This document shows, in pieces, positions 6,216 to 41,073 of a stretch of 41,073 nt of DNA; position 1 is the stretch's first letter, and each line of letters begins with the position of its first letter. The DNA is from a virus. The notes beneath the pieces were generated by a model that ran no database searches, was not told the DNA's origin, and worked only from the letters and a program-made list of their open reading frames with translations. The DNA lies in IMG/VR virus record IMGVR_UViG_3300033150_000609, positions 1 to 41,073 of that record; one strand, written 5' to 3'. The position numbers were made by a program, and so were the translations under genes.

Positions 6216-6989
6216 TTAAAATAATTTTCTCTGCAAATTTACTAACATTTTTTCCTTCGCATCTTTGACAAAATTCTTTTTTATTTCAAATCCATATGCG
6301 TTCCTATTCAATTCAGCGGCGGCTCTCAATGTCGCACCGCTTCCAGCCACGGGGTCAATTACAACGTCGCCCTCGTCCGTATAAATTTCTATTAATCTTT
6401 TCAATATTGGAATAGATTTTTGTGTTGGATGTATTTTAGGAACAGAATTGTCTCTTTTCCATTTGAACCAATTAAAAATCATTTTTCCACCATTGTTGAA
6501 TTTCGGCAATTTATCACGATATAAAACTATAGCATGTTCTACCGCTCCCACTATTTTCATATTGGCTTTCAAAACTTGGGCGGAATAGTTTTTGATAAAA
6601 AATAAAGGCATATGATTATTAAAATCATATTTTTTCCCATAATCTATAATCATTTGCATTTGCTCAAATGCACAAAATACAATCATAGCCGGAGATAATC
6701 CTTTTTGTTTTGGTTCTTTTTTTAACATTTTAGAACAAAAATGCATATATTCCGCAATATTGAAATAGCCATCTGTATCAAAAAATGATTTGTTTGCTTT
6801 ATCTGATTCGCCTTTTTTATTGTCACCACCAACATACCACGACGGATTACTCGCATAAGCATAATTGCCCATATTATACGGTATATCCGCAATAATCAAC
6901 TGCGCTTTAGGTATCTGATAAGATTTATAATTTTGAAAATGGTCATTAAATAATTCTATTTTCGTTAATTTTTCTTGCCTTTCAATCAT
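6216..6989 (-). CDS. DNA methyltransferase, beta-class (adenine-N6 or cytosine-N4)
   Basis: 257 residues from the ATG that overlaps the upstream stop. Catalytic motif IV is ADIPYNMG (about 34-41), a DIPY variant of DPPY. The SAM-binding motif I block is near the C-terminus: KIHPTQKSIPIL, then VVIDPVAGSGATL at about 210-220 and GFEI, so the order catalytic-then-SAM marks a beta-type enzyme. It transfers methyl from SAM to DNA. No partner restriction enzyme is adjacent, so it is an orphan phage methylase, plausibly for protection against host restriction. The ORF extends 10 codons upstream, but the internal ATG fits the overlap. Confidence 0.87.
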   Translation of the reverse strand: MIERQEKLTKIELFNDHFQNYKSYQIPKAQLIIADIPYNMGNYAYASNPSWYVGGDNKKGESDKANKSFFDTDGYFNIAEYMHFCSKMLKKEPKQKGLSPAMIVFCAFEQMQMIIDYGKKYDFNNHMPLFFIKNYSAQVLKANMKIVGAVEHAIVLYRDKLPKFNNGGKMIFNWFKWKRDNSVPKIHPTQKSIPILKRLIEIYTDEGDVVIDPVAGSGATLRAAAELNRNAYGFEIKKNFVKDAKEKMLVNLQRKLF

Positions 6990-7269
6990 AAGAATACCTG
7001 TTAATATCAAACAAATCACCGTGATTATCCGGTTTCTTCCCTGCCGGTGTGTAAGGTTTCTTAATAATCCAGGTATCCGTGCTGTCGTCGTCTTTTACCT
7101 TACCGATATTCTCTACAATACCCCTCTCCGGCTCAACCATAAATCTTAAATACCTGTCGGGGCAACTCACGCCATTGAAAGAATTAAGACACGCCCTTTT
7201 TATTTCTTCGGTTCTCGCCCTGCCTCCGAGTTCCTGTAAAACTAAATATACTTTATATTCTTGTTTCAT
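6982..7269 (-). CDS. Small winged-helix-like protein (95 aa)
   Basis: 95 residues from MKQEYKVYLVLQELGGRARTEEIKR. The first 50 residues look like a winged helix (helix, GGRARTEEIKRACL, then CPDRYLRFM), and a C-terminal part KKPYTPAGKK follows. The start ATG overlaps the upstream stop (ATGA) and has GGAAAAG. It is coupled to the methylase behind it by an 8-base overlap. It may be a sequence-reading partner or regulator, but this is inference. Confidence 0.6.
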   Translation of the reverse strand: MKQEYKVYLVLQELGGRARTEEIKRACLNSFNGVSCPDRYLRFMVEPERGIVENIGKVKDDDSTDTWIIKKPYTPAGKKPDNHGDLFDINRYSYD

Positions 7270-7751
7270 TTCTTTTCCAAAATTTCGGGATTCAGTATTT
7301 CTTGCAACCAAACACCGTGACATTGTGAACCCGGAAATCCCATTGTATTTCCACCGCCGCCTGTTTCCATTACATATACTTTTCCGTTATTTGTTTTTAT
7401 TATAAATCTATCAACACTATCACCCCAAAAAGCGTTAGTGGCATCATCCTCCTTGAATAAAATAATCTTTTGCCCTTCTAATACTTCAAAATTCACATCT
7501 TTTGTTTTAATTTTATATTTTCCCATTTCTTCTGCGGATATTTCTCTGCCAAATTCAATATCAGATTTTATTCCTATTTGTTGATGAAGACGCATTATTT
7601 TGCCGTCCTCTTTTAAGATAGCATAACAGCGGTAATCATTTGCCACCATAAATTCTGATTCGTGTAAATCACCAACGGTACCTCCAAAATTAAATGTTTT
7701 GTCCCTTTCTTCAAACAAAAACCTTTTACCCTTAAACTTAATTTCTTTCAT
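7266..7751 (-). CDS. Hypothetical protein (161 aa)
   Basis: 161 residues, mostly predicted beta, with GGTVGDLHESEFMVANDYRC, EDDATNAFWGDSVDRFI and the Gly-rich METGGGGNTMGFPG toward the end. No signal peptide or membrane helix. A strong GAGGAGG precedes the ATG. Its stop overlaps the next gene. I do not recognise the family. Confidence 0.65.
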   Translation of the reverse strand: MKEIKFKGKRFLFEERDKTFNFGGTVGDLHESEFMVANDYRCYAILKEDGKIMRLHQQIGIKSDIEFGREISAEEMGKYKIKTKDVNFEVLEGQKIILFKEDDATNAFWGDSVDRFIIKTNNGKVYVMETGGGGNTMGFPGSQCHGVWLQEILNPEILEKK

Positions 7752-7761
7752 TTCTTCCTCC

Positions 7762-7830
7762 TCATTTCCCCGTCCCCGTGATTATCCAAATAAATAACAG
7801 CGAAAAAACCATAAGTAACGCCGGTATCAT
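7762..7830 (-). CDS. Tiny membrane peptide (22 aa)
   Basis: 22 residues (MIPALLMVFSLLFIWIITGTGK), essentially one membrane helix. It overlaps the 31-aa membrane peptide upstream by ATGA, and its stop sits in the ribosome-binding region of the 161-aa gene. The overlap organisation favours a translated gene; a translational-coupling function for its neighbours is the alternative. Confidence 0.45.
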   Translation of the reverse strand: MIPALLMVFSLLFIWIITGTGK

Positions 7831-7922
7831 TTTTTCCCCCTCTTTTTTCTCGCTCCTATCCTCTCCCATACAATCCCCAGATATATCGCCACGAAACTGA
7901 TTATTATGTAGAGGATTAGCAT
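7827..7922 (-). CDS. Tiny membrane protein (31 aa)
   Basis: 31 residues: a hydrophobic helix (MLILYIIISFVAIYLGIVW) followed by ERIGARKKRGKK. N-out or N-in topology cannot be fixed, but the positive tail suggests the C-terminus is cytoplasmic. It begins inside the end of the cytosine methylase and overlaps the 22-aa peptide. Function unknown. Confidence 0.5.
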   Translation of the reverse strand: MLILYIIISFVAIYLGIVWERIGARKKRGKK

Positions 7923-8859
7923 TTTCGCCTTTCATATTTCATTATTCTTTTTCCTATCCACTCAACCACATTCACCGTAACAGCATTGCCTATTACTACT
8001 CCTCGCACAGCGTCCAGTCGTCCGAAAATCCCTGAAGGCTCTCTTTTTCGTTCGGGGTTAGTTTCCGCAATATGAGTGTCTTGCCATATAAAGGAAGTGT
8101 TGCCCCTTTTTGTTGCTCCGAGTGTTTGGCTAACGAGGTTTTCGTCTCTATTATATCTATCTCCTTTTTTCGCTTGTATTGTTTTAGCGACAATGTTTTC
8201 TCCCTCAAATTTAAAGGGGCTTCCTTGCCCGTCACGATTGACTCTAATTGTTGAAGCGACAAGAGTTTCATTTGTTGGGTCTTGGCTTGCCCCGTCTCTT
8301 GTAGAAATACATAACCCCCTCTGCCCCATTTTTTGGACCTTCTTATCATTCCCGAAACCGCCTTTTTCGTCAAATAGTATTTCGGGTGGACAGATGTTTC
8401 CAAAATATCCGACAATGAACAAACGTCTGCGTCTCTGGGCGACTCCGAAGTATTGAGAGTTAAGTATTCTCCACAAAACGCCATACCCGATTTTTTGCAA
8501 GTCGCTGATAACTTTTGAAAAGTCCCTTCCGCCATTAACGGATAAAAGCCCGGGAACATTCTCTCCAAGAAACCATTGCGGATTAAATATTCGCAAACAC
8601 CTTGCCACTTCTTCCCAGAGTCCGCTCCCTTCGTGCTGCATACCCGCCCTCTTGCCTGCGATTGAATTCCCCTGACAAGGCCACCCCGCACACAAAAGGT
8701 TGATATGTCTGTATGTTTCGGGATTTTTGGATATTGCTTTTTCAAGATTTTCAAAGCATACGGCATTATTTCTATTTGACCTTTGCACTTAAATCCCGCC
8801 CTTTCCAACCCTAAATCCATACCCCCACAACCAGAGAACAAAGATATAAAAGTTTTCAT
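7916..8859 (-). pseudogene. 5-cytosine DNA methyltransferase broken across reading frames
   Basis: Conserved C5-methylase motifs appear in order, but in two frames. The frame starting at 8859 has motif I (LFSGCGGMDLGLERAGF). The middle is in a second frame: catalytic PCQGNS, ENVPGLL and QRRRRLFIVGY. Then motif IX (ILRKLTPNEKESLQGFSDDWT) is back in the first frame, and motif X (VIGNAVTVNVVEWIGKRI) is again in the second. So at least three frame changes are needed: near 8690-8740, near 8060-8070 (one extra base at ATT-G-CGG restores HIRKLTP) and near 8000-8015. The residue quality within each piece is high. Either the gene is recently inactivated or the assembly has local indel errors. The catalytic Cys piece lacks motif I, so a functional single product is unlikely as sequenced. 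Confidence 0.85.
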
Positions 8860-31832: not shown

Positions 31833-32416
31833 TTAACTCCTACCCATAACCTTCAAATCTTTCCAGTTCTGTTTTATCACTTCTTCTTTTCCAATTATCT
31901 GTATCCTGATTTCTTTTCTCAATCCTTCAATATGCTTTATGCAATCCCCATCTTTTGCCATTGCCGCCCTCATATCAAAAACCGTTTCAATTCTACGCCG
32001 CAAACTTATTATCTTGCTTTTCTTATGCCAAAAATCCAAATCCCTGACATCTTTTTTGAACCAGTCATCAACATCATAACCACCTAAAACGCTTGCAATA
32101 TCCGCTACTTCGCTTCCGTATTCAGTTGTTTTTTTTTACCTGTTGCTGAATTCAAAAAACTTTCACAGATAAATGTTACCGCTGCGCTTAATTTCCGAAC
32201 ATCAACCTTCTTGTTTATGGTATCAAACTCTGCTCCCGTTAATTCGCAGAACTGCTTTACCAACGACAGATAAGGGTTTGTTTCTTCTTTTGAAATATTC
32301 ACCGAGTTGCTCATCGCTTCCGGCGTCAATTTCTTTATGACGTAAACTTGTCCCTCTATCGTAAGTTCAATCGGTTCAAATAAAGCACTCTCATCATCAA
32401 AATTTCTTTTCGGCAT
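31833..32416 (-). CDS. Tail assembly chaperone GT, -1 frameshift product (about 194 aa)
   Basis: If ribosomes slip back by one base in the nine-A run at 32129-32137 (heptamer A-AAA-AAA in register), the first 96 residues are joined to a long open frame that continues without stop to 31833 (TTEYGSEVADIASVLGGYDVDDWFKKDV... ending in KVMGRS). The second frame has a stop (TAA) just upstream of the run, so it is accessible only by slipping. This matches lambda G/GT and other siphophage chaperones, and the tape measure follows one base on. Confidence 0.8.
32105..32416 (-). CDS. Tail assembly chaperone G (103 aa)
   Basis: 103 residues: DESALFEPIELTIEGQVYVIKKLTPEAMSN then a helical part and TGKKKQLNTEAK at the stop. 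Size, sequence style (I-E-G-Q-V-Y-V-I-K-K-L-T) and place between tail tube and tape measure are those of the short tail-chaperone form. Its last ten codons contain the slippery poly-A. It coats the tape measure during tail assembly. Confidence 0.82.
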   Translation of the reverse strand: MPKRNFDDESALFEPIELTIEGQVYVIKKLTPEAMSNSVNISKEETNPYLSLVKQFCELTGAEFDTINKKVDVRKLSAAVTFICESFLNSATGKKKQLNTEAK

Positions 32417-32444
32417 AATTTACGCTCCTTAAAAATTTCTTCGC

Positions 32445-32945
32445 TTAACCTATTTTCCAGAGATTCCCAGTATCCGGGCTTGTCGTTACAGGGAACGCCA
32501 CAAATGTTACCCCGAAAACCCTCTGACTTGCATTGTTGTAAGTGATTTCAAGGTTCTCTCTCGGCGCACACAGGAAAACTGTCAGCCAAGTCGTGCTATC
32601 CACTGACGGCACATTATCCACAATCGGCTTTAAAATAAGTTCTTTTGCCTTATCCGCCAACGTCGTTCCGACAGGGTTTTTTACAATCAGCGCTCCACCC
32701 ACGACAGAAGCATTCGGAATTACCTTCGCTAACTGGTCTAATGATGTTCTTGTCATCGGAACATCTACCGAACACATTCTTCCCGTCATTACCTCATCAA
32801 CCGGCGTTGTCCCCGCTTGGTCTTCGTGAATTTCTTCTGACGAAACCGCACTCTTGAAAATCACATCGCCGAATGACTTACCCAAATCCACATCGTCAAA
32901 CAAAATCTGACACGCACCCAAATCCTTAATGTTGCTCTGTCCCAT
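32445..32945 (-). CDS. Major tail tube protein
   Basis: 166 residues, beta-rich, with MGQSNIKDLGACQILFDDVDLGKS, then FKSAVSSEEIHEDQAGTTPVDEVMTG, MTRTSLDQLAKVIP and QRVFGVTFVAFPVT. The GTTPVDEVMTG stretch and the EITY...R...F.AFP ending are usual for siphophage tube proteins. It stacks to make the tail tube. Located just before the frameshift chaperone. Confidence 0.82.
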   Translation of the reverse strand: MGQSNIKDLGACQILFDDVDLGKSFGDVIFKSAVSSEEIHEDQAGTTPVDEVMTGRMCSVDVPMTRTSLDQLAKVIPNASVVGGALIVKNPVGTTLADKAKELILKPIVDNVPSVDSTTWLTVFLCAPRENLEITYNNASQRVFGVTFVAFPVTTSPDTGNLWKIG

Positions 32946-32956
32946 TTTCTACCTCC

Positions 32957-33352
32957 TTATTCTTGAGATATTCTCAAAATATAATTCGTTGAGAACTCCC
33001 ACCTTCCTTTTTCATCTTGTCCCATATTCGCTGGTATCTGTATCGCTTCCGAAACATTTATCCTGAAATCTCCATCCCCTAAATCCGGCAATGTCAATCC
33101 TTTTCCTGCATTGAGTATGGAATAAATTTTATATGCTTCACCTCTCGCATCATAATAATCCTTCGCCCTGCTTAAAACCTGAATTGTTTTATCCTGCCTA
33201 TCAGATAACCACATAGAACCACCTGCCCCGCCAGTTTCAATTATTACAGAGCAGGTATCCTGAATATCCTGCGGTCTCCAACCCGCAAATAAATCCGTTC
33301 CTATCACCAAACTTGTCTTGCTTTCAATGTATGTCGCAATTTCTTTTATCAT
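32957..33352 (-). CDS. Tail terminator-like protein (131 aa)
   Basis: 131 residues: IATYIESKTSLVIGTDLFAGWRP, CSVIIETGGAGGSMWLSDRQDKTIQVLSRAKDYYDARGEAY, and a C-terminal beta pair ending EFSTNYILRI. This is the layout of tail-completion/minor capsid proteins (DUF3168-type) that close the tube and fix it to the head. Its ATG overlaps the previous stop. Confidence 0.72.
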   Translation of the reverse strand: MIKEIATYIESKTSLVIGTDLFAGWRPQDIQDTCSVIIETGGAGGSMWLSDRQDKTIQVLSRAKDYYDARGEAYKIYSILNAGKGLTLPDLGDGDFRINVSEAIQIPANMGQDEKGRWEFSTNYILRISQE

Positions 33353-33804
33353 TTGAATAATTCCTTAATTTTATCAACTATCGCCTGAAAATAATCCTTT
33401 TTAAATCTTTTCATTTTACTTTCAAGATATTTCTTTCCTGCTGACGGCTCTGTAAAATTCGCTTGCGTTTCGTGCCATTTCGCCGCATACGGAGTATTAA
33501 ATCCTACCGTCGCTGTAATCGCACCCTTTTGTATATTTTTGAATGTCGTAATTGGCACTCCTTTTCCATATCCTAATTTTGCCGCTGTTTGTATCAATTT
33601 ATTTTCCACAATCACACTTCCGCTGCCTCTTAAAGTTCCTTCTTTTAGTGGCACTGTTGGTCTTTCCATTATCGTATCTCTGAAAAGCATCATCCCTGCC
33701 GTCGCCATTCCCGCTTCCGCTTTTTCAATGGATATTTTCCCAAACTTTTTCAATCGCTTTTCAACATCCTTGTAATCAAATTTTATTTCTGTTTTTGTTT
33801 TCAT
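33349..33804 (-). CDS. HK97 gp10-like head-tail joining protein
   Basis: 151 residues from MKTKTEIKFDYKDVEKRLKKF, the ATG overlapping the upstream stop (ATGA). Family marks are VPLKEGTLRGSGSV, TVGFNTPYAAKWHET and KKYLESKMKRFK, those of gp10-type tail-completion proteins (the Y-A-x-x-x-H-E motif). It acts at the head-tail joint. Confidence 0.8.
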   Translation of the reverse strand: MKTKTEIKFDYKDVEKRLKKFGKISIEKAEAGMATAGMMLFRDTIMERPTVPLKEGTLRGSGSVIVENKLIQTAAKLGYGKGVPITTFKNIQKGAITATVGFNTPYAAKWHETQANFTEPSAGKKYLESKMKRFKKDYFQAIVDKIKELFK

Positions 33805-34115
33805 CTTACATATACCACCGTCCATTCAACAATAAATCCCTTTTTCGGCACAACTTTCAAAACATTATGGAGTTTGCTATCCAATTTTATTTTATCTTTA
33901 GTATTAATATCGTATTTACCCCTTATCATTATCCTTGCATATGGCACAACTTCTTCCCCCGCTGCATCTCTTATTAATGAATCCCCGCCTTTAACTGAAA
34001 AATCATAATCTATTCTTGCGTCAATAGTCGTTTCCGTCGGGGGTAATTCTTTATTCCATTTATCCAGTCCGCCGCTTTTAACTATCACAACTTTATCAAC
34101 TGCATATTCACTCAT
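33801..34115 (-). CDS. Head-closure-like minor protein (104 aa)
   Basis: 104 residues, mainly beta: TTIDARIDYDFSVKGGD, AAGEEVVPYARIMIRGKYDINTKDKI, VPKKGFIVEWTVVYV. The size and place between the MuF-like protein and gp10-like protein fit a head-closure/minor capsid component. Family match is by layout only. Confidence 0.65.
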   Translation of the reverse strand: MSEYAVDKVVIVKSGGLDKWNKELPPTETTIDARIDYDFSVKGGDSLIRDAAGEEVVPYARIMIRGKYDINTKDKIKLDSKLHNVLKVVPKKGFIVEWTVVYVR

Positions 34116-35062
34116 TACGCAACTCCGTGTAAAATCTGCTCATAACCGGCGAAAGTTTCAACTGGTATTTTACTCTGGCTTAAATCTACAATATTTTTAT
34201 AATCAGTTCCCAACCGACGCTGTAAAAATGGTCTTGTTATCGGGACAAGAATACATTCGCAATTCGGATGCACCGACGGTCTTTCGTCTAACATAGGAAA
34301 TTCTTTATCATTTCCGCTCAATGAATAAACCCTTCCCATAAAAGTTTGACATATTTCGCAAGCCCCTGCGTGAACCGACCACTGCACCAAATCATTCCTG
34401 TATTGCAAACAGGTATTGATTGTTCCCCTTGTCGTTGCTTCCCGCATCCGTGTTCTTGCAACCAATCTTGCATAATGCTTCGGCTGGTAATGCCTTCCGT
34501 TTATCGTCAGAAATTGCTCATTACCCATCTGTTTTCTTAATTCTATCAATATTTTATCTGATATTGTTCGCCGTGCCTCGCCACTGATTACACCCTCCGC
34601 TATCATTTGACTTATCAATTTATCTTCCAATATGCTCTGCTGTGTAGCCCTGACATATCTGTTTACGGTTCTTCTTATACTACTATTCGCTGTCAAAAGG
34701 TCCAACGTTACCTCATCAGCCAGAGTATTTATTCCTGATGTATGTATCGTCGCATCATAATTTATTGTATCTGTGACACCCAAAATTTTTAATCGTTCCC
34801 CTGCAATATCAACTCCTCGCCAGTAACCGAAAGGAATATTTTTTTCAACCCATTTTTTCGTTCCGTTATTCAACTGTTTTACAATCAAATTTGTTTCCCT
34901 TAATAACGCTTCTGTTCTCCATTTCTCAAACGCAGTTATATCCATATTTCTCAATTTCTTTTCCAATTCGTGTTGAACTTTTTCATACATCAACCCTAAT
35001 TGATTTATTTTTTCTTTGAGATAAAGTTCTCGCTCAATTTTGCTCAAATTTCTAAACGGCAT
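34115..35062 (-). CDS. Minor head protein, MuF-like
   Basis: 315 residues. I place the start at MPFRNLSKIERELY (35062) as the longer frame overlaps the Gly-rich gene. N-terminal 150 residues are helical. About 195-300 is the MuF/minor-head domain: ARLVARTRMREATTRGTINTC, HAGACEICQTFMGRVYSLSG and DERPSVHPNCECILVPI, with the typical CEIC...HPNC cysteines. It sits at the portal vertex and may be injected. Its stop TAATG overlaps the next start. Confidence 0.85.
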   Translation of the reverse strand: MPFRNLSKIERELYLKEKINQLGLMYEKVQHELEKKLRNMDITAFEKWRTEALLRETNLIVKQLNNGTKKWVEKNIPFGYWRGVDIAGERLKILGVTDTINYDATIHTSGINTLADEVTLDLLTANSSIRRTVNRYVRATQQSILEDKLISQMIAEGVISGEARRTISDKILIELRKQMGNEQFLTINGRHYQPKHYARLVARTRMREATTRGTINTCLQYRNDLVQWSVHAGACEICQTFMGRVYSLSGNDKEFPMLDERPSVHPNCECILVPITRPFLQRRLGTDYKNIVDLSQSKIPVETFAGYEQILHGVA

Positions 35063-35075
35063 TATTAAAATCCCA

Positions 35076-35243
35076 TTATCTGTTTTTCCCTTTACCTTTA
35101 CCACCACCTTGCCCGTATCCCACACCACCACTTGGGCACGGATTTATATTTATTCCGCTTCTCATCCCTCCTGGTCTTCCAACACCTTTTCCGCTACCAT
35201 CCTGCGGTCTTGCAATTCCTCTCGGATTAACTTTCTTACTCAT
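35076..35243 (-). CDS. Glycine-rich small head protein (55 aa)
   Basis: 55 residues with SKKVNPRGIARPQDGSGKGVGRPGG and NPCPSGGVGYGQGGGKGKGKNR; Gly/Lys-rich and probably unfolded alone. A strong AAGGAGG lies before the ATG. Similar Gly-rich pieces are common beside portal/MuF genes in phage genomes. Role unknown. Confidence 0.7.
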   Translation of the reverse strand: MSKKVNPRGIARPQDGSGKGVGRPGGMRSGININPCPSGGVGYGQGGGKGKGKNR

Positions 35244-35254
35244 CTTTTGCCTCC

Positions 35255-35680
35255 TTAAAGCACATCCTCATCTTCATCCCTTTTCAAATCAATAGCGTGA
35301 TGCCCCGTCTTTGTGGTATCTTCACTGTCTTTGAGCAGAACCTTTGCCATATCACAAATCGGAACTCCCTGCTCAAATACATATTTTTCCTTTACAATTC
35401 CCGCTTCAACAACACCCTGCGCCTGCAAACTCCCCCGCCTAAATATCTCATCCGAGAACGCCAATAAAAATAATGCCTGTTCGCATTGTGCGTATTTCAT
35501 ATTTATCGTCGGTGTATCCGGGAATGAATACCCATCCGTATTTATTAATTGCCTGTATGCCGTTATCAATGCCTGCTCTTTATTTGTTCCAGTAACCCAG
35601 TATTTATCAGCGCCTATTCTTTCGCCGAAATATATATTCGCTTCCGCCATTGTTACCCAACTATTATCTTCTAAACTCAT
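35255..35680 (-). CDS. Head-tail connector protein, DnaT-like/Ad1 family (141 aa)
   Basis: 141 residues from MSLEDNSWVTMAEANIYFGERIGADKYWV, ATG with AAAGGAG. The block QALITAYRQLINTDGYSFPDTP and KYAQCEQALFLLAFSDE identify the DnaT-like/head-adaptor family used by siphophages to connect portal to tail. C-terminus acidic. It directly follows the carbohydrate cassette. Confidence 0.78.
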   Translation of the reverse strand: MSLEDNSWVTMAEANIYFGERIGADKYWVTGTNKEQALITAYRQLINTDGYSFPDTPTINMKYAQCEQALFLLAFSDEIFRRGSLQAQGVVEAGIVKEKYVFEQGVPICDMAKVLLKDSEDTTKTGHHAIDLKRDEDEDVL

Positions 35681-35682
35681 TT

Positions 35683-36210
35683 TTACTCCTTTATCAGTAA
35701 ACCTATTCCATATTGAACCCCATCCTGCCACATATTAAAAGTTATACACGGATATTGTTTTGAAATTTCTTTCCAAAATCTTCCAATTCTGTTATTCTGT
35801 TTCGGGTAAGTATCTATATCGTGAAATACAATAATATTCTTCGTTAACAAACCGTATATTTCGTATTCCAGTTTTGCATCTTCGTAAAAATGCAGTGCAT
35901 CAATAAAAAGAAGATTTATTTTTTTCCCATTAAGCATTTTTTTCAACATTTCTAATGTTTCCCGTTTGTGTATATCCCCTTGTATATCCGAATATCCATT
36001 CTTATCAATCCCGATATGCCTTGCGCTTAATAATTGTTCATAGAATTTCTTCTGCCGGTTTTGATATGTTCCCAGTTCCACAATAACAGGATTTTCTATA
36101 TCCCTGTTTTTGAAATACCCTTCTATAAATTCAAGAAATAATTTCCATTCCCACGGGTTCTGCATAGGTTGTCCCTCTTTCATCAAGGCATTAAATAATT
36201 CAATGTTCAT
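35683..36210 (-). CDS. Class I methyltransferase, CmcI/Methyltransf_24-like (175 aa)
   Basis: 175 residues from MNIELFNALM (ATG overlaps the epimerase stop). SAM-binding region VIVELGTYQNRQ, then GIDKNGYSDIQGDIH, LLFIDALHFYEDAKLEYE (the FIDA acidic motif) and IIVFHDIDTYPK. It could O-methylate the sugar made by the neighbouring enzymes. It closes the carbohydrate cassette. Confidence 0.72.
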   Translation of the reverse strand: MNIELFNALMKEGQPMQNPWEWKLFLEFIEGYFKNRDIENPVIVELGTYQNRQKKFYEQLLSARHIGIDKNGYSDIQGDIHKRETLEMLKKMLNGKKINLLFIDALHFYEDAKLEYEIYGLLTKNIIVFHDIDTYPKQNNRIGRFWKEISKQYPCITFNMWQDGVQYGIGLLIKE

Positions 36211-37208
36211 ATCGTTTTTGCCTTCCACGTTTCCGGCGTTTTATCATTTATAATTTCCACTTCCAAATGATAATCAAAGGGCTTGCTACCCCTTTCCTTA
36301 ATCCAATCTATCATCTTTTTTATGCCATTCTTTAAAGTATATTGTGTTTCATAACCGAGCATCTCTCGTGCTTTATCAGATGAACAAGTTGCATATTTTA
36401 CTTCCTGTTCCCGTGCAGGCACATAAATAGGATATAAATCAAAGTTCAATAATTCTGCTATCAATACCGCCAAATCGTTTACCGCTACAAACTGTTCATC
36501 CGAACCTACGTTGATTATTTCGCCAACTATATTTTTTTGAGTTGCCATTTTACTTAATGGATTTATGCAGTCCTGCACGAATACGAAACATCTTTTCTGT
36601 TCTCCATTCCCGTAAATTATCGGCTGCTTTCCCTGTAACATTCTATTTATAAATATGCTCGCCACATTCCTAAAAGGGTCATCATATTTTTGCCTCTGTC
36701 CAATAATGTTATGCGGGACTGCAATTACATATTCAAATCCGTGAACCCCAGCCATAACTTCAACCAATTTTTCACTCGCTACTTTTGAAATAGCATAAGG
36801 GTCTTGCGGTTTCGGTTTCATATCTTCCGTGAAAGGAACTGCATTTTCACCGTATCTCGCCATTGACGAAAGGAAAATAAAACGCTTACCCCTGTTCTGA
36901 ATAAATGCGGATAATACCGTTGATGTCGCCTGATAAATTGATTTATTAACTACGCTCGGAGAGAAAACGCTCAATCCTTCGTGAGCATACGCCGCACAAT
37001 GATACAGCACGTCCACATTTTTTATTATTTTTTGCATATCCTTCAAGTTCGTGCAGTCGGCAAAATAACATCTTGCGCCTTTCGGGACGTTTTCTGTATA
37101 TCCCCCTGTCAAATTATCACATCCCTCTACTTCGTATCCCAGAGCAAGCATAGCGTCCGCCAAATGACTACCTAAAAAACCCGCAATACCTGTTATAAAA
37201 ACTTTCAT
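36207..37208 (-). CDS. NAD-dependent sugar epimerase/dehydratase (SDR)
   Basis: 333 residues from MKVFITG (ATG overlaps GT2 stop). Rossmann motif TGIAGFLGSH (about 6-15), DNL after the second strand, catalytic SS (114-115) and YAISK (Tyr 138, Lys 142). It contains the GDP/UDP/dTDP-sugar type region NIIGQRQKYDDPFRNVASIFINRMLQG. It interconverts or dehydrates a nucleotide sugar. The complete catalytic set suggests an active enzyme. Located among glycosyltransferases in the capsid operon. Confidence 0.87.
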   Translation of the reverse strand: MKVFITGIAGFLGSHLADAMLALGYEVEGCDNLTGGYTENVPKGARCYFADCTNLKDMQKIIKNVDVLYHCAAYAHEGLSVFSPSVVNKSIYQATSTVLSAFIQNRGKRFIFLSSMARYGENAVPFTEDMKPKPQDPYAISKVASEKLVEVMAGVHGFEYVIAVPHNIIGQRQKYDDPFRNVASIFINRMLQGKQPIIYGNGEQKRCFVFVQDCINPLSKMATQKNIVGEIINVGSDEQFVAVNDLAVLIAELLNFDLYPIYVPAREQEVKYATCSSDKAREMLGYETQYTLKNGIKKMIDWIKERGSKPFDYHLEVEIINDKTPETWKAKTI

Positions 37209-37828
37209 CTTAATTTCCTTGAATCCCTGCCCCATAAAAGACCATCCGCTTTTCTTTCACGCCAAATCTGTAAATCTGAACTTGAATTTTGTTTCCTTGA
37301 ATTTATATGTGTATCATCCATTTCATTTTTGAAAAGTGCGGGATGATAATGCGTAACTTTTGCATCTTCCCCGTATTTGAATTTATTTATGCTTTCCGCA
37401 AAGGTTTGCAATTCTGCGTCTGCGTGAAAAATCTTGTAATCAGGGCAGAAGCATCGCCTTTCAGGAAACCTATCCGCAAACTTTCTTCCGACCAATCCAA
37501 CGCCGCCCTTGCGCCCCTGTTCCATATTACTTTGATTTAATGTAACCATTCCGTCGGTATCAGGGAAATTATCAACCATACATTTAACTGCCTTTTCTAT
37601 ACAATCAGGGAAAAGTTTAATATCATCATTTAACCAGAATATAATATCCGCTGTTGAAGTCCTGATATATTTATTCCAGATACCGAAAACAAACAGCCGG
37701 TTATAATCAGATTCAATAAAAATCCTGTAAAAAGTAGTTTTCAAATAACTGTTATCCAAAATAGAACAGAGGCATCTTTTTAATTTCTGTTCTCGTTTGT
37801 AAGTTGCTATCACAATGTCAATCTTCAT
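37205..37828 (-). CDS. Glycosyltransferase family 2-like (207 aa)
   Basis: 207 residues: MKIDIVIATYKREQKLKRCL (donor-site start), ADIIFWLNDDIKLFPDCIEKAV (D-D acidic pair) and a C-terminal helical part. The GT-A fold is truncated compared with typical 250-300 aa GT2 enzymes but keeps both donor motifs. Its ATG overlaps the DUF115-GT stop by 11 bases. It transfers a sugar, probably on to a virion or cell glycan. Confidence 0.75.
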   Translation of the reverse strand: MKIDIVIATYKREQKLKRCLCSILDNSYLKTTFYRIFIESDYNRLFVFGIWNKYIRTSTADIIFWLNDDIKLFPDCIEKAVKCMVDNFPDTDGMVTLNQSNMEQGRKGGVGLVGRKFADRFPERRCFCPDYKIFHADAELQTFAESINKFKYGEDAKVTHYHPALFKNEMDDTHINSRKQNSSSDLQIWRERKADGLLWGRDSRKLR

Positions 37829-39218
37829 TTTTTAATCTCCTGCTTGCCTGAAAAAGTTCTACTGTCGGCTCGCCTGCCGCTTTCATCAAATCAAAAATCT
37901 GCGAATAAGAAGCGTCAAATTCTTCCAGTGTAATTTCGTTCTTTGCGACCATTTCTTTTAAGACCTCTCCGAAATTAACTTCCTCACCGCAATCATAATG
38001 TTCTGTATTTTTATTTCTTGCAATCCATTTATCCAGAAAGTGTTTTGTTCTTTGATTATTTTTCAGGTATATTACCGCATTCCCGTATTGTTTTTTCGTG
38101 CTGTTCCGATATTTAGACCAGTCAATAATATGTATTCCAATATCCGCCTTGAAATTATTAAACCTGTCAGGATATTTCTGTATTACAGCGTCGGAATCAA
38201 GCCACGCAATATCCCGTCCCCAGTGCTTATCCAGCATTTCCCGCATAAAAACTGCTTTATGATAAGTATTTGTTTGCCAATCACCTTTTGATTTTACTCC
38301 CTGTAAATCATATTCAAAACCGAATTTTTTAATTGACCTTTCAAGATTTTTTATTTCCTTTTCATAGCCGGTATTTTCCGTGTAGAATGATACAATTATC
38401 GGTCTTGTAATTTTTTCAATATCTTTTGTCTTTCCAAACTCAAAACATTTCAAAGCACTTGTCTCACTTAAATTTACCACCCTGAAACCCCTGTCCTGTA
38501 TTTCAACGGACGCCCTTTCAAAATTCTCAATCATATGTTCAAAAATACTTTCCCCTTGATTTAACGGGTATCCGTCGTGCCACCATACCTGTTTACCGTT
38601 CCCATCGCCCTTCATATCGTATCCTAAAAGATAAATGGGGTTTGCGCCTAAACACATAGCCAGATTTAACGCCGCATAGCCGGAATTTGAACCGTGCCCG
38701 ATTCCGTCTTTGAGCGATGATGTCAACATTTTTTCACCGGCGCTATCCACCTGATAAACAGCGTTAGGGTATCTGTATCTGAAAAAATTAAGCCATACCT
38801 TGAACCCTTTATAATCTTCAAACTTTTTTTGCACATCTTCACCCAAAGCACCCTGTATAATCCATTCGTAAAATCTTGAATCCGTTGAAAATAAAATTGA
38901 CGGTGAGATTTTCATAAAGGACATATTTACCCCGATTGTCAATTCACCTTTCAGTATTCTCCAGTCAAAACCTTTCAAACTCTTGCCCCCACCGACAATA
39001 AAACATCGCTGTCCTTTCCATATATTATCCGCTATAAAATCCGCAAAATTATTCGGACTATCTTTCGTAATAATATCCCGCCTGTTATTCATCATATCTG
39101 ACATTAACCTCAATTCTGCCCAGTTTGCCGCCACATCGGACATTTTAATACATTCATCGGGTTTGCTTTTTTTCTCTCTGCCCCTTTCCGCCAAGTCGGA
39201 CATATTTATTATACCCAT
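37818..39218 (-). CDS. MptE/DUF115-like domain fused to a glycosyltransferase (466 aa)
   Basis: 466 residues, two domains. About 70-255 is the MptE/DUF115 fold (RCFIVGGGKSLKGFDW, GHGSNSGYAALNLAMCLGANPIYLLGYDM, WHDGYPLN), found in pterin enzymes and in glycan-building proteins. About 270-460 is a nucleotide-sugar transferase (IIVSFYTENTGYEKEIKNL, GRDIAWLDSDAVI with D-S-D, CGEEVNFGEVLKEM). The pairing with GT2, epimerase and methyltransferase shows a sugar-transfer role. Acceptor unknown. Confidence 0.78.
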   Translation of the reverse strand: MGIINMSDLAERGREKKSKPDECIKMSDVAANWAELRLMSDMMNNRRDIITKDSPNNFADFIADNIWKGQRCFIVGGGKSLKGFDWRILKGELTIGVNMSFMKISPSILFSTDSRFYEWIIQGALGEDVQKKFEDYKGFKVWLNFFRYRYPNAVYQVDSAGEKMLTSSLKDGIGHGSNSGYAALNLAMCLGANPIYLLGYDMKGDGNGKQVWWHDGYPLNQGESIFEHMIENFERASVEIQDRGFRVVNLSETSALKCFEFGKTKDIEKITRPIIVSFYTENTGYEKEIKNLERSIKKFGFEYDLQGVKSKGDWQTNTYHKAVFMREMLDKHWGRDIAWLDSDAVIQKYPDRFNNFKADIGIHIIDWSKYRNSTKKQYGNAVIYLKNNQRTKHFLDKWIARNKNTEHYDCGEEVNFGEVLKEMVAKNEITLEEFDASYSQIFDLMKAAGEPTVELFQASRRLKNED

Positions 39219-39622
39219 TATTTTATGCCGCCCTGCGTTTTCCTTTCAATATCATTCTCATCCAAAAATGCCTGATAAATTTCAATGCACTGAACATCTG
39301 ACTTCGCTTCAAATTTATGCAAAACCCCGCACGGAACTTCCATTACCCCGCCTGCCTGTAATTCTGTTTTATCTTCAATACCGCTATTAAAGATAGAGAC
39401 GATTAAAATCCCTGAAATGATATAAAAAAGATTAACCTTGTTTTTATGTTTATGTTCCGAGCAGTAACCGCCCTTTTTTATATCAAGGTAATGAACCGAG
39501 ACCGCATCATTGCTGTAAATCTTTGTTGTCTCTCCCCAGATTTTTCCCTGCTTATCTATAAGCATTATTGTATTCCCTGCGTGGAGAAGGGCAGAACGCT
39601 CATAACGCTTGCCCCTCTCCAC
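39218..39622 (-). CDS. Cupin-fold protein (134 aa)
   Basis: 134 residues. Cupin barrel with metal-site residues EHKHK (about 56-60), YIISGILIVSIF and PCGVLHKFEA. Cupins of this size in sugar cassettes are epimerases or isomerases of nucleotide sugars, or binders. GTG at 39622 is used; an ATG 19 codons downstream with AGGG is an alternative. First gene of the cassette, 16 bases behind the capsid gene. Confidence 0.75.
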   Translation of the reverse strand: MERGKRYERSALLHAGNTIMLIDKQGKIWGETTKIYSNDAVSVHYLDIKKGGYCSEHKHKNKVNLFYIISGILIVSIFNSGIEDKTELQAGGVMEVPCGVLHKFEAKSDVQCIEIYQAFLDENDIERKTQGGIK

Positions 39623-39638
39623 AGGCTCAAAAACAGGG

Positions 39639-40634
39639 TTATGATGTCTTACAGCGCCTCAACTGGTCGGTATCGCCGATTGCTCCGCCATACCTCATCC
39701 AGCCCGCAACCGTTTCAATGTAAGCAAGGATGTCCAACATATTATACAGTGTCAAGTCCATTCTGTATCCGCCCTTCAATTTCTTTCCGGGCAGGATTAC
39801 ATAATAATCTGCGTTGTTTGTAAGCATCAGCGTATAAACGGGCTTTACGTTGTAAGTCAATGCTCTTGATGCTCCTGCAAACGGCTGATTGAGGTGTGCA
39901 ATCGCTCTTTCAATCCTCGGTCTTAAAGTATTCGGCGCAAGAATTACAAAAGGTGAATTAGCAGAAACGCCGTATCCTTTATTCTTTACCGCTGCCAAAG
40001 TAGTATCGCACGCTTTCTGAATTGTGTTTACATCTCTGCTGACTGTATAATCAGGATGCGTGTTCGCCAGTGTTCCCGGTGTCGGTGTCTGCCACGTTAT
40101 GTTATTCCCAACTGCCAATGCTTCAACCAGTGCGTAGAATGCCTGCGCCCTGCGAAGATATGCCTTGTTCCTGAACTCAATCGCTGTATCTTCAAGCGCC
40201 CAGTATTTGCTGTCATCAAGCCACGTCTTGTCCCAGCCAAGTGCGCCGCCGTACCTGTCAAAACTCACACTGATTTTACTTCCCGTTGCTTTGTAAACTT
40301 TCACTTTATCCCCGACAGGAATTTTTGAGAAAATCAAAGATGACGACACATCCAGAATTTCAAAGCCGCTTTCTTTCGTGCCTGTAAAATCCCTGATGTC
40401 AAAAATCTGCTCATACCCTAAATCAAAATCACCAACAGCGTGAAATTTTTCAAGGATTTGCAGAACCTCTGCCGGAAAATCGCCCTTCGTTGTAAATGCC
40501 TGATACGCTCCGTGCAGGTCTTTGTTCCTGTCAATCGCTTTCATAAACATCTGAAAAGCCCCGTAGAGTTTTTTCAAATCCTCGGGTTTTTCAAAGTCCA
40601 CTTTACTCCAATCCCTTATAATCTTTCCTTTCAT
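39639..40634 (-). CDS. Major capsid protein (HK97 fold)
   Basis: 331 residues, with GAGGTG before the ATG. N-terminal helical arm, a beta section (FDRYGGALGWDKTWLDD), A-domain parts (KAYLRRAQAFYALVEALAV, NSPFVILAPNTLRPRIERAI) and a C-terminal E-loop/P-domain-like ending (TNNADYYVILPGKKLKGGYRMDLTLYNMLDILAYIETVAGWMRYG). The size, place after the cement protein and before tail genes, and HK97-like layout support a major capsid role. Forms the icosahedral shell. Confidence 0.85.
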   Translation of the reverse strand: MKGKIIRDWSKVDFEKPEDLKKLYGAFQMFMKAIDRNKDLHGAYQAFTTKGDFPAEVLQILEKFHAVGDFDLGYEQIFDIRDFTGTKESGFEILDVSSSLIFSKIPVGDKVKVYKATGSKISVSFDRYGGALGWDKTWLDDSKYWALEDTAIEFRNKAYLRRAQAFYALVEALAVGNNITWQTPTPGTLANTHPDYTVSRDVNTIQKACDTTLAAVKNKGYGVSANSPFVILAPNTLRPRIERAIAHLNQPFAGASRALTYNVKPVYTLMLTNNADYYVILPGKKLKGGYRMDLTLYNMLDILAYIETVAGWMRYGGAIGDTDQLRRCKTS

Positions 40635-40664
40635 TTTATTTCACCTCCCGAAATATTCCTCGGC

Positions 40665-41018
40665 TTACGCCGCTACATTCCCCTTCAAATCAATCAGCAA
40701 AGTCGTAGCCAGCGCCGCACTGACTTCCAGCGCCCTTCCGCAAAGCGTATTACCGCTTGCAGAGTTTGTTACCGTTGACGTTGATGCGTTGAAATATACC
40801 TTATCACCGACAGCGAAAATTACTCCGCTGAAAGCTGTTTTCGGCACGACTATCTTCTCCGCTGAATAAATAAGAACTGCGTTTTTTCCCACAGCCGTCG
40901 CTTCTACAATCACACCGACCTTGTCCTCTACCTTTACCATATCCCCCGCTGCATATCCTCCGCTGGGCGCTGTGATTATAACACTCGCAAAAATATTCGT
41001 TCTTAATTCAAGTCCCAT
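40665..41018 (-). CDS. Capsid cement/decoration protein (DUF2190-like, 117 aa)
   Basis: 117 residues: an N-terminal segment (MGLELRTNIFASVIITAPSGGYAAGD), beta barrel (KVEDKVGVIVEATAVGKNAVLIYSAEKIVVPK) and VGDKVYFNASTSTV...GNTLCGRALEVSAALATTLLIDLKG. This is the DUF2190 pattern of small capsid-stabilising proteins. GGGAGG precedes the ATG. Its start lies in the terminal repeat; it abuts the capsid gene. Confidence 0.85.
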   Translation of the reverse strand: MGLELRTNIFASVIITAPSGGYAAGDMVKVEDKVGVIVEATAVGKNAVLIYSAEKIVVPKTAFSGVIFAVGDKVYFNASTSTVTNSASGNTLCGRALEVSAALATTLLIDLKGNVAA

Positions 41019-41073
41019 TTTAATACACCTCCCTTACTTTTTTTTCTTTTCTTTTTCTTCCAAGACAGCGATT
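40960..41073. repeat. Exact terminal direct repeat, right copy
   Basis: 114 bases identical to 1-114, counted base by base including the eight-T run. It contains the first part of the cement gene and the end of the 49-aa gene. See the left copy. Confidence 0.95.

Follow-up and report, generated by a model that had tools for sequence, protein, structure and literature searches.

Why should a virus carry a run of sugar-modifying genes in the middle of its head operon? The question is raised by the virus record IMGVR_UViG_3300033150_000609, a stretch of 41,073 bases that was analysed in full and is called the window below. Five consecutive genes on its minus strand, coding for a cupin, a glycosyltransferase fusion, a GT2 glycosyltransferase, an SDR sugar enzyme and a methyltransferase, lie between the gene of the major capsid protein and that of a probable head–tail connector. 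An initial annotation of this DNA had proposed glycosylation of the virion from the gene order; this is still the best reading and is now backed by comparative evidence reaching beyond a single genome. We consider it fairly probable that the cassette is a capsid-glycosylation island, in which a fixed Maf-like transferase and exchangeable sugar genes are expressed together with the head genes; its acceptor, sugar donor, order of steps and purpose we infer from the evidence set out here.

Searches of Pfam and PHROGs found the five open reading frames (ORFs) intact and on one strand, as annotated. The first is the cupin (39218..39622; Cupin_2, 1e-8), a possible sugar isomerase or epimerase, whose sole match among solved structures, oxalate decarboxylase at 1.6e-5, is uninformative about the substrate; cupin proteins are also present in three cassettes of related viruses (L017, L019 and L039). 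The fusion follows (37818..39218; phrog_4603, 2e-24), with a Maf-like glycosyltransferase domain at residues ~48–270 and a GT-A domain at ~270–464 in an AlphaFold2 model. Behind it lie the GT2 glycosyltransferase (37205..37828; PF00535, Glycos_transf_2, 7e-8), the SDR nucleotide-sugar epimerase/dehydratase (36207..37235, probable start 37208; PF01370, Epimerase, 5e-48), to which the closest solved chain is a UDP-glucose 4-epimerase (4zrm, 1e-43), and a class I methyltransferase (35683..36228, probable start 36210) with a possible role in glycan capping. The last of these matches PF13578 (Methyltransf_24) at 9e-4, below the cut-off, and no solved structure; its cluster includes seven ORFs of related viruses. 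The genes overlap, as had been noted, and are thereby translationally coupled: the cupin and the fusion by one base (TAATG), the fusion and GT2 by 11 bases, and the GT2/SDR and SDR/methyltransferase pairs by ATGA, if translation begins at the inner ATGs, 37208 and 36210.

The fusion protein is central to the argument. Its N-terminal part had been labelled MptE, a pterin enzyme (6-hydroxymethylpterin diphosphokinase). This label is not the best one: the MptE-like family PF01973 scores 3e-4 and 21.0 bits against a curated cut-off of 34.6, and phrog_4603, labelled ‘alpha-2,3-sialyltransferase’, matches better. Pfam also returned a weak match to Nucleotid_trans (4e-4). In the AlphaFold2 model, built from 25 related sequences with a mean predicted local distance difference test score (pLDDT) of 83.6, the best structural match of the N-terminal half is the Magnetospirillum Maf protein (5mu5; Z 15.4, root-mean-square deviation 3.5, 198 aligned residues), the alignment covering model residues 48–295 and residues 247–523 of the 632-residue Maf chain. 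A profile of the Maf part run against PDB sequences gave a weak match to Campylobacter sialyltransferases of the Cst-II type (2drj, 0.0026), which the central domain of Maf is described as resembling (PMC11339370). Residues G78, S80, N98, D113 and H214 are conserved in 20–21 of the 22 aligned rows, a row from phage S20 being gapped at the first four. The N-terminal domain thus appears, as modelled, to have the fold of the Maf_flag10 catalytic domain, and its fold and motifs are best read as those of a sugar transferase of the Maf/Cst-II type rather than of a pterin enzyme.

The C-terminal half has a GT-A fold and a DxD-type motif (DSD), the second aspartate of which, residue 343, is conserved in all eight rows that include this domain, out of 22. 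Its best structural match is a glycosyltransferase of virus PBCV-1 (2p73; Z 18.0, 185 residues), an entry whose title gives the enzyme a role in glycosylating the major capsid protein of that virus; with Foldseek alone, GT-A enzymes rank first. The fusion had been thought unusual, a view that the relatives do not bear out: among 57 related loci bearing the Maf-like domain, both domains share one frame in 17 and occupy separate genes in 15, and no second domain was found in 25.

Is the place of the Maf-like gene beside the capsid gene a constant one? A first set of 27 viral loci was found by capsid homology, and the adjacency was first seen there by BLAST: wherever the sequence sufficed, a Maf-like gene followed the capsid gene, except in locus L018. 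A wider search with a capsid profile gave 72 viral loci. The 56 in which the sequence continues for 1 kb or more past the capsid gene were testable; the other 16 were excluded, and three of these still show the domain. In 49 of the 56 the Maf-like domain follows the capsid gene at a distance of no more than 1 kb, and in five, which have the most divergent capsids tested (29–33% identity), at 1.4–2.7 kb. Over all 72 loci, 58 Maf-like matches fell downstream of the capsid gene, in 390 kb, and none upstream, in 458 kb. The Maf and capsid profiles were partly built from rows of the same loci, where the strength of a match is a matter of construction. The capsids are diverse, 30 proteins forming 21 clusters at 90% identity and 13 at 70%, and the placement is not due to a few near-copies. 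All four loci found in bacterial genomes, labelled Omnitrophota and Aminicenantes, have the same order. One Aminicenantes genome (G002) has two related prophage regions with this arrangement, on contigs C10 and C30. With the minor head protein as bait, a single relative was recovered from viral contigs; in Microcystis phage MACPNOA1, whose capsid protein is distantly related (27%), no gene annotated as a sugar enzyme follows that of the capsid.

The converse search, starting from the Maf-like domain, took the best 80 of at least 512 matches and is thus biased towards sequences closely related to the protein of the window; five loci with less than 1.5 kb upstream were excluded. A capsid gene of one of four PHROG families, or a head–tail adaptor, lies no more than 2.3 kb upstream in 69 of the 75 testable loci. 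The capsid family of the window is found within 1 kb in 41 of them and at 1.7 kb in one more; among the remainder there are capsid genes of the phrog_247 type (five loci, 1.0–1.6 kb), the phrog_1328 type (three, 1.9–2.3 kb) and the phrog_617 type (two, 0.7 kb), and a phrog_442 head–tail adaptor within 0.51 kb in 17. In 34 loci the capsid family of the window was not met with inside 1 kb; for these, 20 chosen upstream ORFs were scanned against PHROGs and the rest were labelled by BLAST to those. Six loci are unassigned: L123, where the capsid gene is 5.0 kb away, L151, L153, L159, L160 and L162. Since several capsid types precede it, the Maf-like gene accompanies more than one kind of head and is not tied to one lineage.

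Eleven annotated records of isolated phages with a Maf-like homologue were inspected. In PMG1 and Psp6 the gene sits between the major head protein and the connector, as in the window; in S20 it is one of several consecutive sugar genes that separate an unnamed gene of capsid size from head closure; and in PAJU2 and Mulvp2 it is in the stretch from connector to tail. The P1 homologue, pmgO, lies among putative morphogenetic genes, in a block where a glycosyltransferase is also encoded. These genes of PHROG 4603 (D3/PMG1, Psp6, PAJU2 and P1 pmgO) code for a domain homologous to that of the window but differ in being single-domain, with one hypothetical protein and a methyltransferase as neighbours. 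A recurring trio, consisting of a sialyltransferase-like gene, a hypothetical protein of ~275–297 residues and a methyltransferase of ~200 residues, was seen in PAJU2 (L042), Psp6 (L045), Eowyn (L043) and perhaps Mulvp2 (L048); in PMG1 (L032) the connector genes interrupt it. A search of the literature, much of it accessible to us in part, turned up no description of phage Maf or sialyltransferase genes beside capsid genes.

The other genes of the cassettes are variable. The 135 ORFs from the capsid-to-connector intervals of the relatives form 51 clusters, of which 40 have one or two members; the largest, with 30 members, holds the Maf and GT-A domains, that of the connector has 11 and the rest are small. 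Thirty-nine cassette proteins, with 20 more, were scanned as cluster representatives or informative-looking picks, and among the 39 Pfam recognized glycosyltransferases, methyltransferases, radical SAM/SPASM proteins, an epimerase and a cupin. In comparison with a sister phage, the ratio of non-synonymous to synonymous divergence (omega) is 0.07–0.09 for four cassette genes (cupin 0.07, with 98% identity; GT2 0.08), with 0.24 for the fifth, the methyltransferase; the capsid gene has 0.078. All five cassette genes are under purifying selection between these two close phages. Synonymous divergence (dS) is strongly unequal between neighbours (cupin 0.13, GT2 0.28, SDR 0.36, fusion 0.77, methyltransferase 0.91, capsid 0.87), a probable sign that close phages, too, have swapped single cassette genes in recent times. 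A surface-protein gene, a fixed transferase (54 of 56 loci) and a variable sugar cassette are thus found together, as in flagellar-type islands.

Simple hydropathy detected no multi-span membrane protein among the five window genes or the 135 ORFs of the relatives, with the exception of one ORF of 96 residues; a hydrophobic stretch in the cupin is a probable false positive of the scale used. This points to work in the cytoplasm rather than to export of envelope glycans. We propose that the SDR enzyme and the cupin would make or alter a nucleotide sugar, that the Maf-like domain would transfer the first sugar to serine or threonine residues of a virion protein (capsid, cement or head fibre) in the cytoplasm, that the fused GT-A domain and GT2 would lengthen the glycan, and that the methyltransferase would cap it. 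With the attachment enzyme kept and the genes behind it swapped between relatives, capsid sugar coats would diversify; their purpose could be to evade host or environmental factors that bind capsids, or to help adsorption. The likely acceptor, the major capsid protein (39639..40634, minus strand; phrog_24071, 2e-30), has HK97-fold shell matches over residues 139–331 (top 9gay_D, Z 11.0) in a model whose confidence is low overall (pLDDT 55); a sequence-profile search of solved structures gave chance matches only.

The nearest parallel is found in bacterial flagella. Maf enzymes attach sugars to serine or threonine residues of flagellin (PMC11339370; PMC7591256), and in flagellar glycosylation islands, as described, the transferase gene adjoins the one for the major surface protein and is surrounded by exchangeable sugar genes (PMC13317340). 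These islands are hypervariable and resemble the phage loci in gene placement and in exchangeable sugar genes, and the catalytic domain of Maf has the fold found in the window's fusion. In Maf systems flagellin is the neighbour and the acceptor, whereas in the window the neighbour is the capsid gene; the phage proteins, unlike Maf, do without N- and C-terminal Maf domains, and a GT-A enzyme is often fused to them or encoded next in line. In mycobacteriophages (Che8, Corndog and Myrna) virion glycosylation, reported for capsid and tail tube (PMC12619734; PMC11600133; PMC12363180), involves phage-encoded glycosyltransferases and a methyltransferase, as it would with the window cassette; a Maf-like domain is not mentioned in the parts of these accounts available to us. 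The PBCV-1 protein A64R shares with the C-terminal half of the fusion a GT-A domain at ~10% identity and is reported to have a methyltransferase domain as well (PMC4691112). PBCV-1 differs in being an algal virus with another capsid, and in the fusion the other half is filled by the Maf-like domain. Glycosylation of phage virions is therefore already known, and the island with a Maf-like enzyme would be a new form of it.

Several observations weigh against a capsid-glycosylation island. Virion glycosylation is here a prediction from genes and modelled folds. True Mafs have two domains beyond the catalytic one (PMC11339370), and neither the N-terminal Rossmann-like nor the C-terminal helical domain was found in the fusion by modelling and structural alignment; outside the Maf-like domain it has ~47 low-confidence residues before and the GT-A domain after. 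Two of the 56 testable loci (L018 and L068) yielded no Maf-like domain, and no sialic-acid synthase was seen among the 25 highest-ranking Pfam families, out of 49, recorded for the 39 representatives. Among the isolated phages, the Caulobacter phages CcrColossus and CcrSC have the gene behind a tail protein, and in Eowyn, XacN1 and JK004 it does not adjoin genes annotated as virion parts. P1 pmgO is classed as nonessential in the laboratory (PMC10695390), so that any virion role in P1 is not essential for plaques. Finally, the related prophages are temperate, so that the genes may have a role in the lysogen.

This last point leads to the main rival, a possible but weaker one that we consider unlikely: the enzymes may ride in the late operon and act on glycans of the host surface, either late in infection or in lysogens, giving superinfection exclusion or seroconversion. 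Relatives of the window are Aminicenantes prophages, one of which has an integrase on one side and cellular-type genes flanking the region on both, and D3 is a seroconverting phage. Seroconversion genes, however, usually lie near attachment sites and not between capsid and connector; the cassettes have no flippase- or polymerase-like membrane protein by hydropathy, the Maf-like gene keeps its place across unrelated heads, and no integrase was found among the 60 window ORFs scanned against PHROGs. About as unlikely, or slightly more so, is that the sugars go to a tail or connector protein, or to a fibre from the same island, rather than to the shell. The two Caulobacter phages fit this, as do the mycobacteriophages with their glycosylated capsid and tail tube, and some islands do encode fibre-like proteins. 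One cassette (L025:14910-16250) has a long collagen-like repeat protein (Collagen, 5e-37) inside the capsid operon, possibly a head fibre and a glycosylation target; another capsid–connector interval (L006:10753-15119) codes for several proteins whose N termini are hydrophobic or resemble signal peptides, one of them with a YadA-head repeat (3.5e-6), and such collagen-like or YadA-head proteins are perhaps head fibres. Most related islands, though, come directly after the capsid gene, and the window's island encodes no fibre protein.

A third proposal, that the glycosyltransferases modify phage DNA bases against restriction, strikes us as very improbable. Phage glycosyltransferases are known to act on DNA (PMC12838424), and the window phage has several DNA-methyltransferase-like genes, but no base-hydroxymethylating enzyme was found among its 60 scanned ORFs, and neither a Maf-like protein transferase nor placement among head genes would be expected for work on DNA. 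A host cluster inserted in one strain, or imported recently, was rejected, as the arrangement recurs in 54 of the 56 testable related loci. The comparison of base composition suggested in the initial annotation gave an ordinary guanine-plus-cytosine content of 0.33–0.40 for the five genes, similar to most of the genome, and hence no compositional sign of recent import.

The surroundings of the island are those of a head operon. Exact direct repeats of 114 bases stand at positions 1–114 and 40960–41073; the contig is circularly closed, the window is probably a complete genome of ~41 kb, and terminase, portal and cement genes lead into the capsid gene. Once closed, the minus-strand order by Pfam and PHROGs is terminase, portal, cement, capsid, cassette, connectors and tail. 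The upstream neighbour of the capsid gene is the cement or head decoration protein (40665..41018; PF09956, 1e-12; phrog_122). Behind the cassette come the probable head–tail connector (35255..35731; a weak DnaT_2 match, 0.028; relatives in 11 loci), which probably starts at 35680 behind AAGGAG given the inner-ATG starts, and the minor head protein forming the downstream border (34115..35131; phrog_4611, 4e-37; PF06152, 1.5e-9). A small glycine-rich ORF of 55 residues (MSKKVNPRGIARPQDG...) with a good ribosome-binding site, at 35076–35243 on the minus strand, overlaps the listed start of the latter. Terminator- and promoter-like sites in 32000–41073 were no more numerous than expected from shuffled sequence, and a tRNA scan of the window found none. 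Elsewhere, adjoining DNA-methyltransferase-like genes at 6216–8859 suggest counter-restriction, and one of 30 small window ORFs scanned matched an acyl carrier protein PHROG (9e-17).

To our knowledge, few groups of phages, chiefly mycobacteriophages, are known to have glycosylated particles. More tentatively than the capsid-glycosylation island itself, we suggest that a Maf-type protein O-glycosyltransferase may have become fixed next to the capsid gene independently in phages of several unrelated capsid lineages, and that these phages exchange the sugar genes behind it; this would be a phage counterpart of flagellar islands, in which each phage would have its own type of capsid sugar. If this is true, a marker gene beside the capsid gene would make virion glycosylation predictable from sequence in many lineages and testable in the culturable phages D3, PMG1 and Psp6. 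It would also suggest a function for many phage genes annotated as ‘alpha-2,3-sialyltransferase’, including P1 pmgO, and one would have to ask why diverse capsid sugars are favoured in phages whose hosts are free-living bacteria, where no animal immune system has to be evaded.

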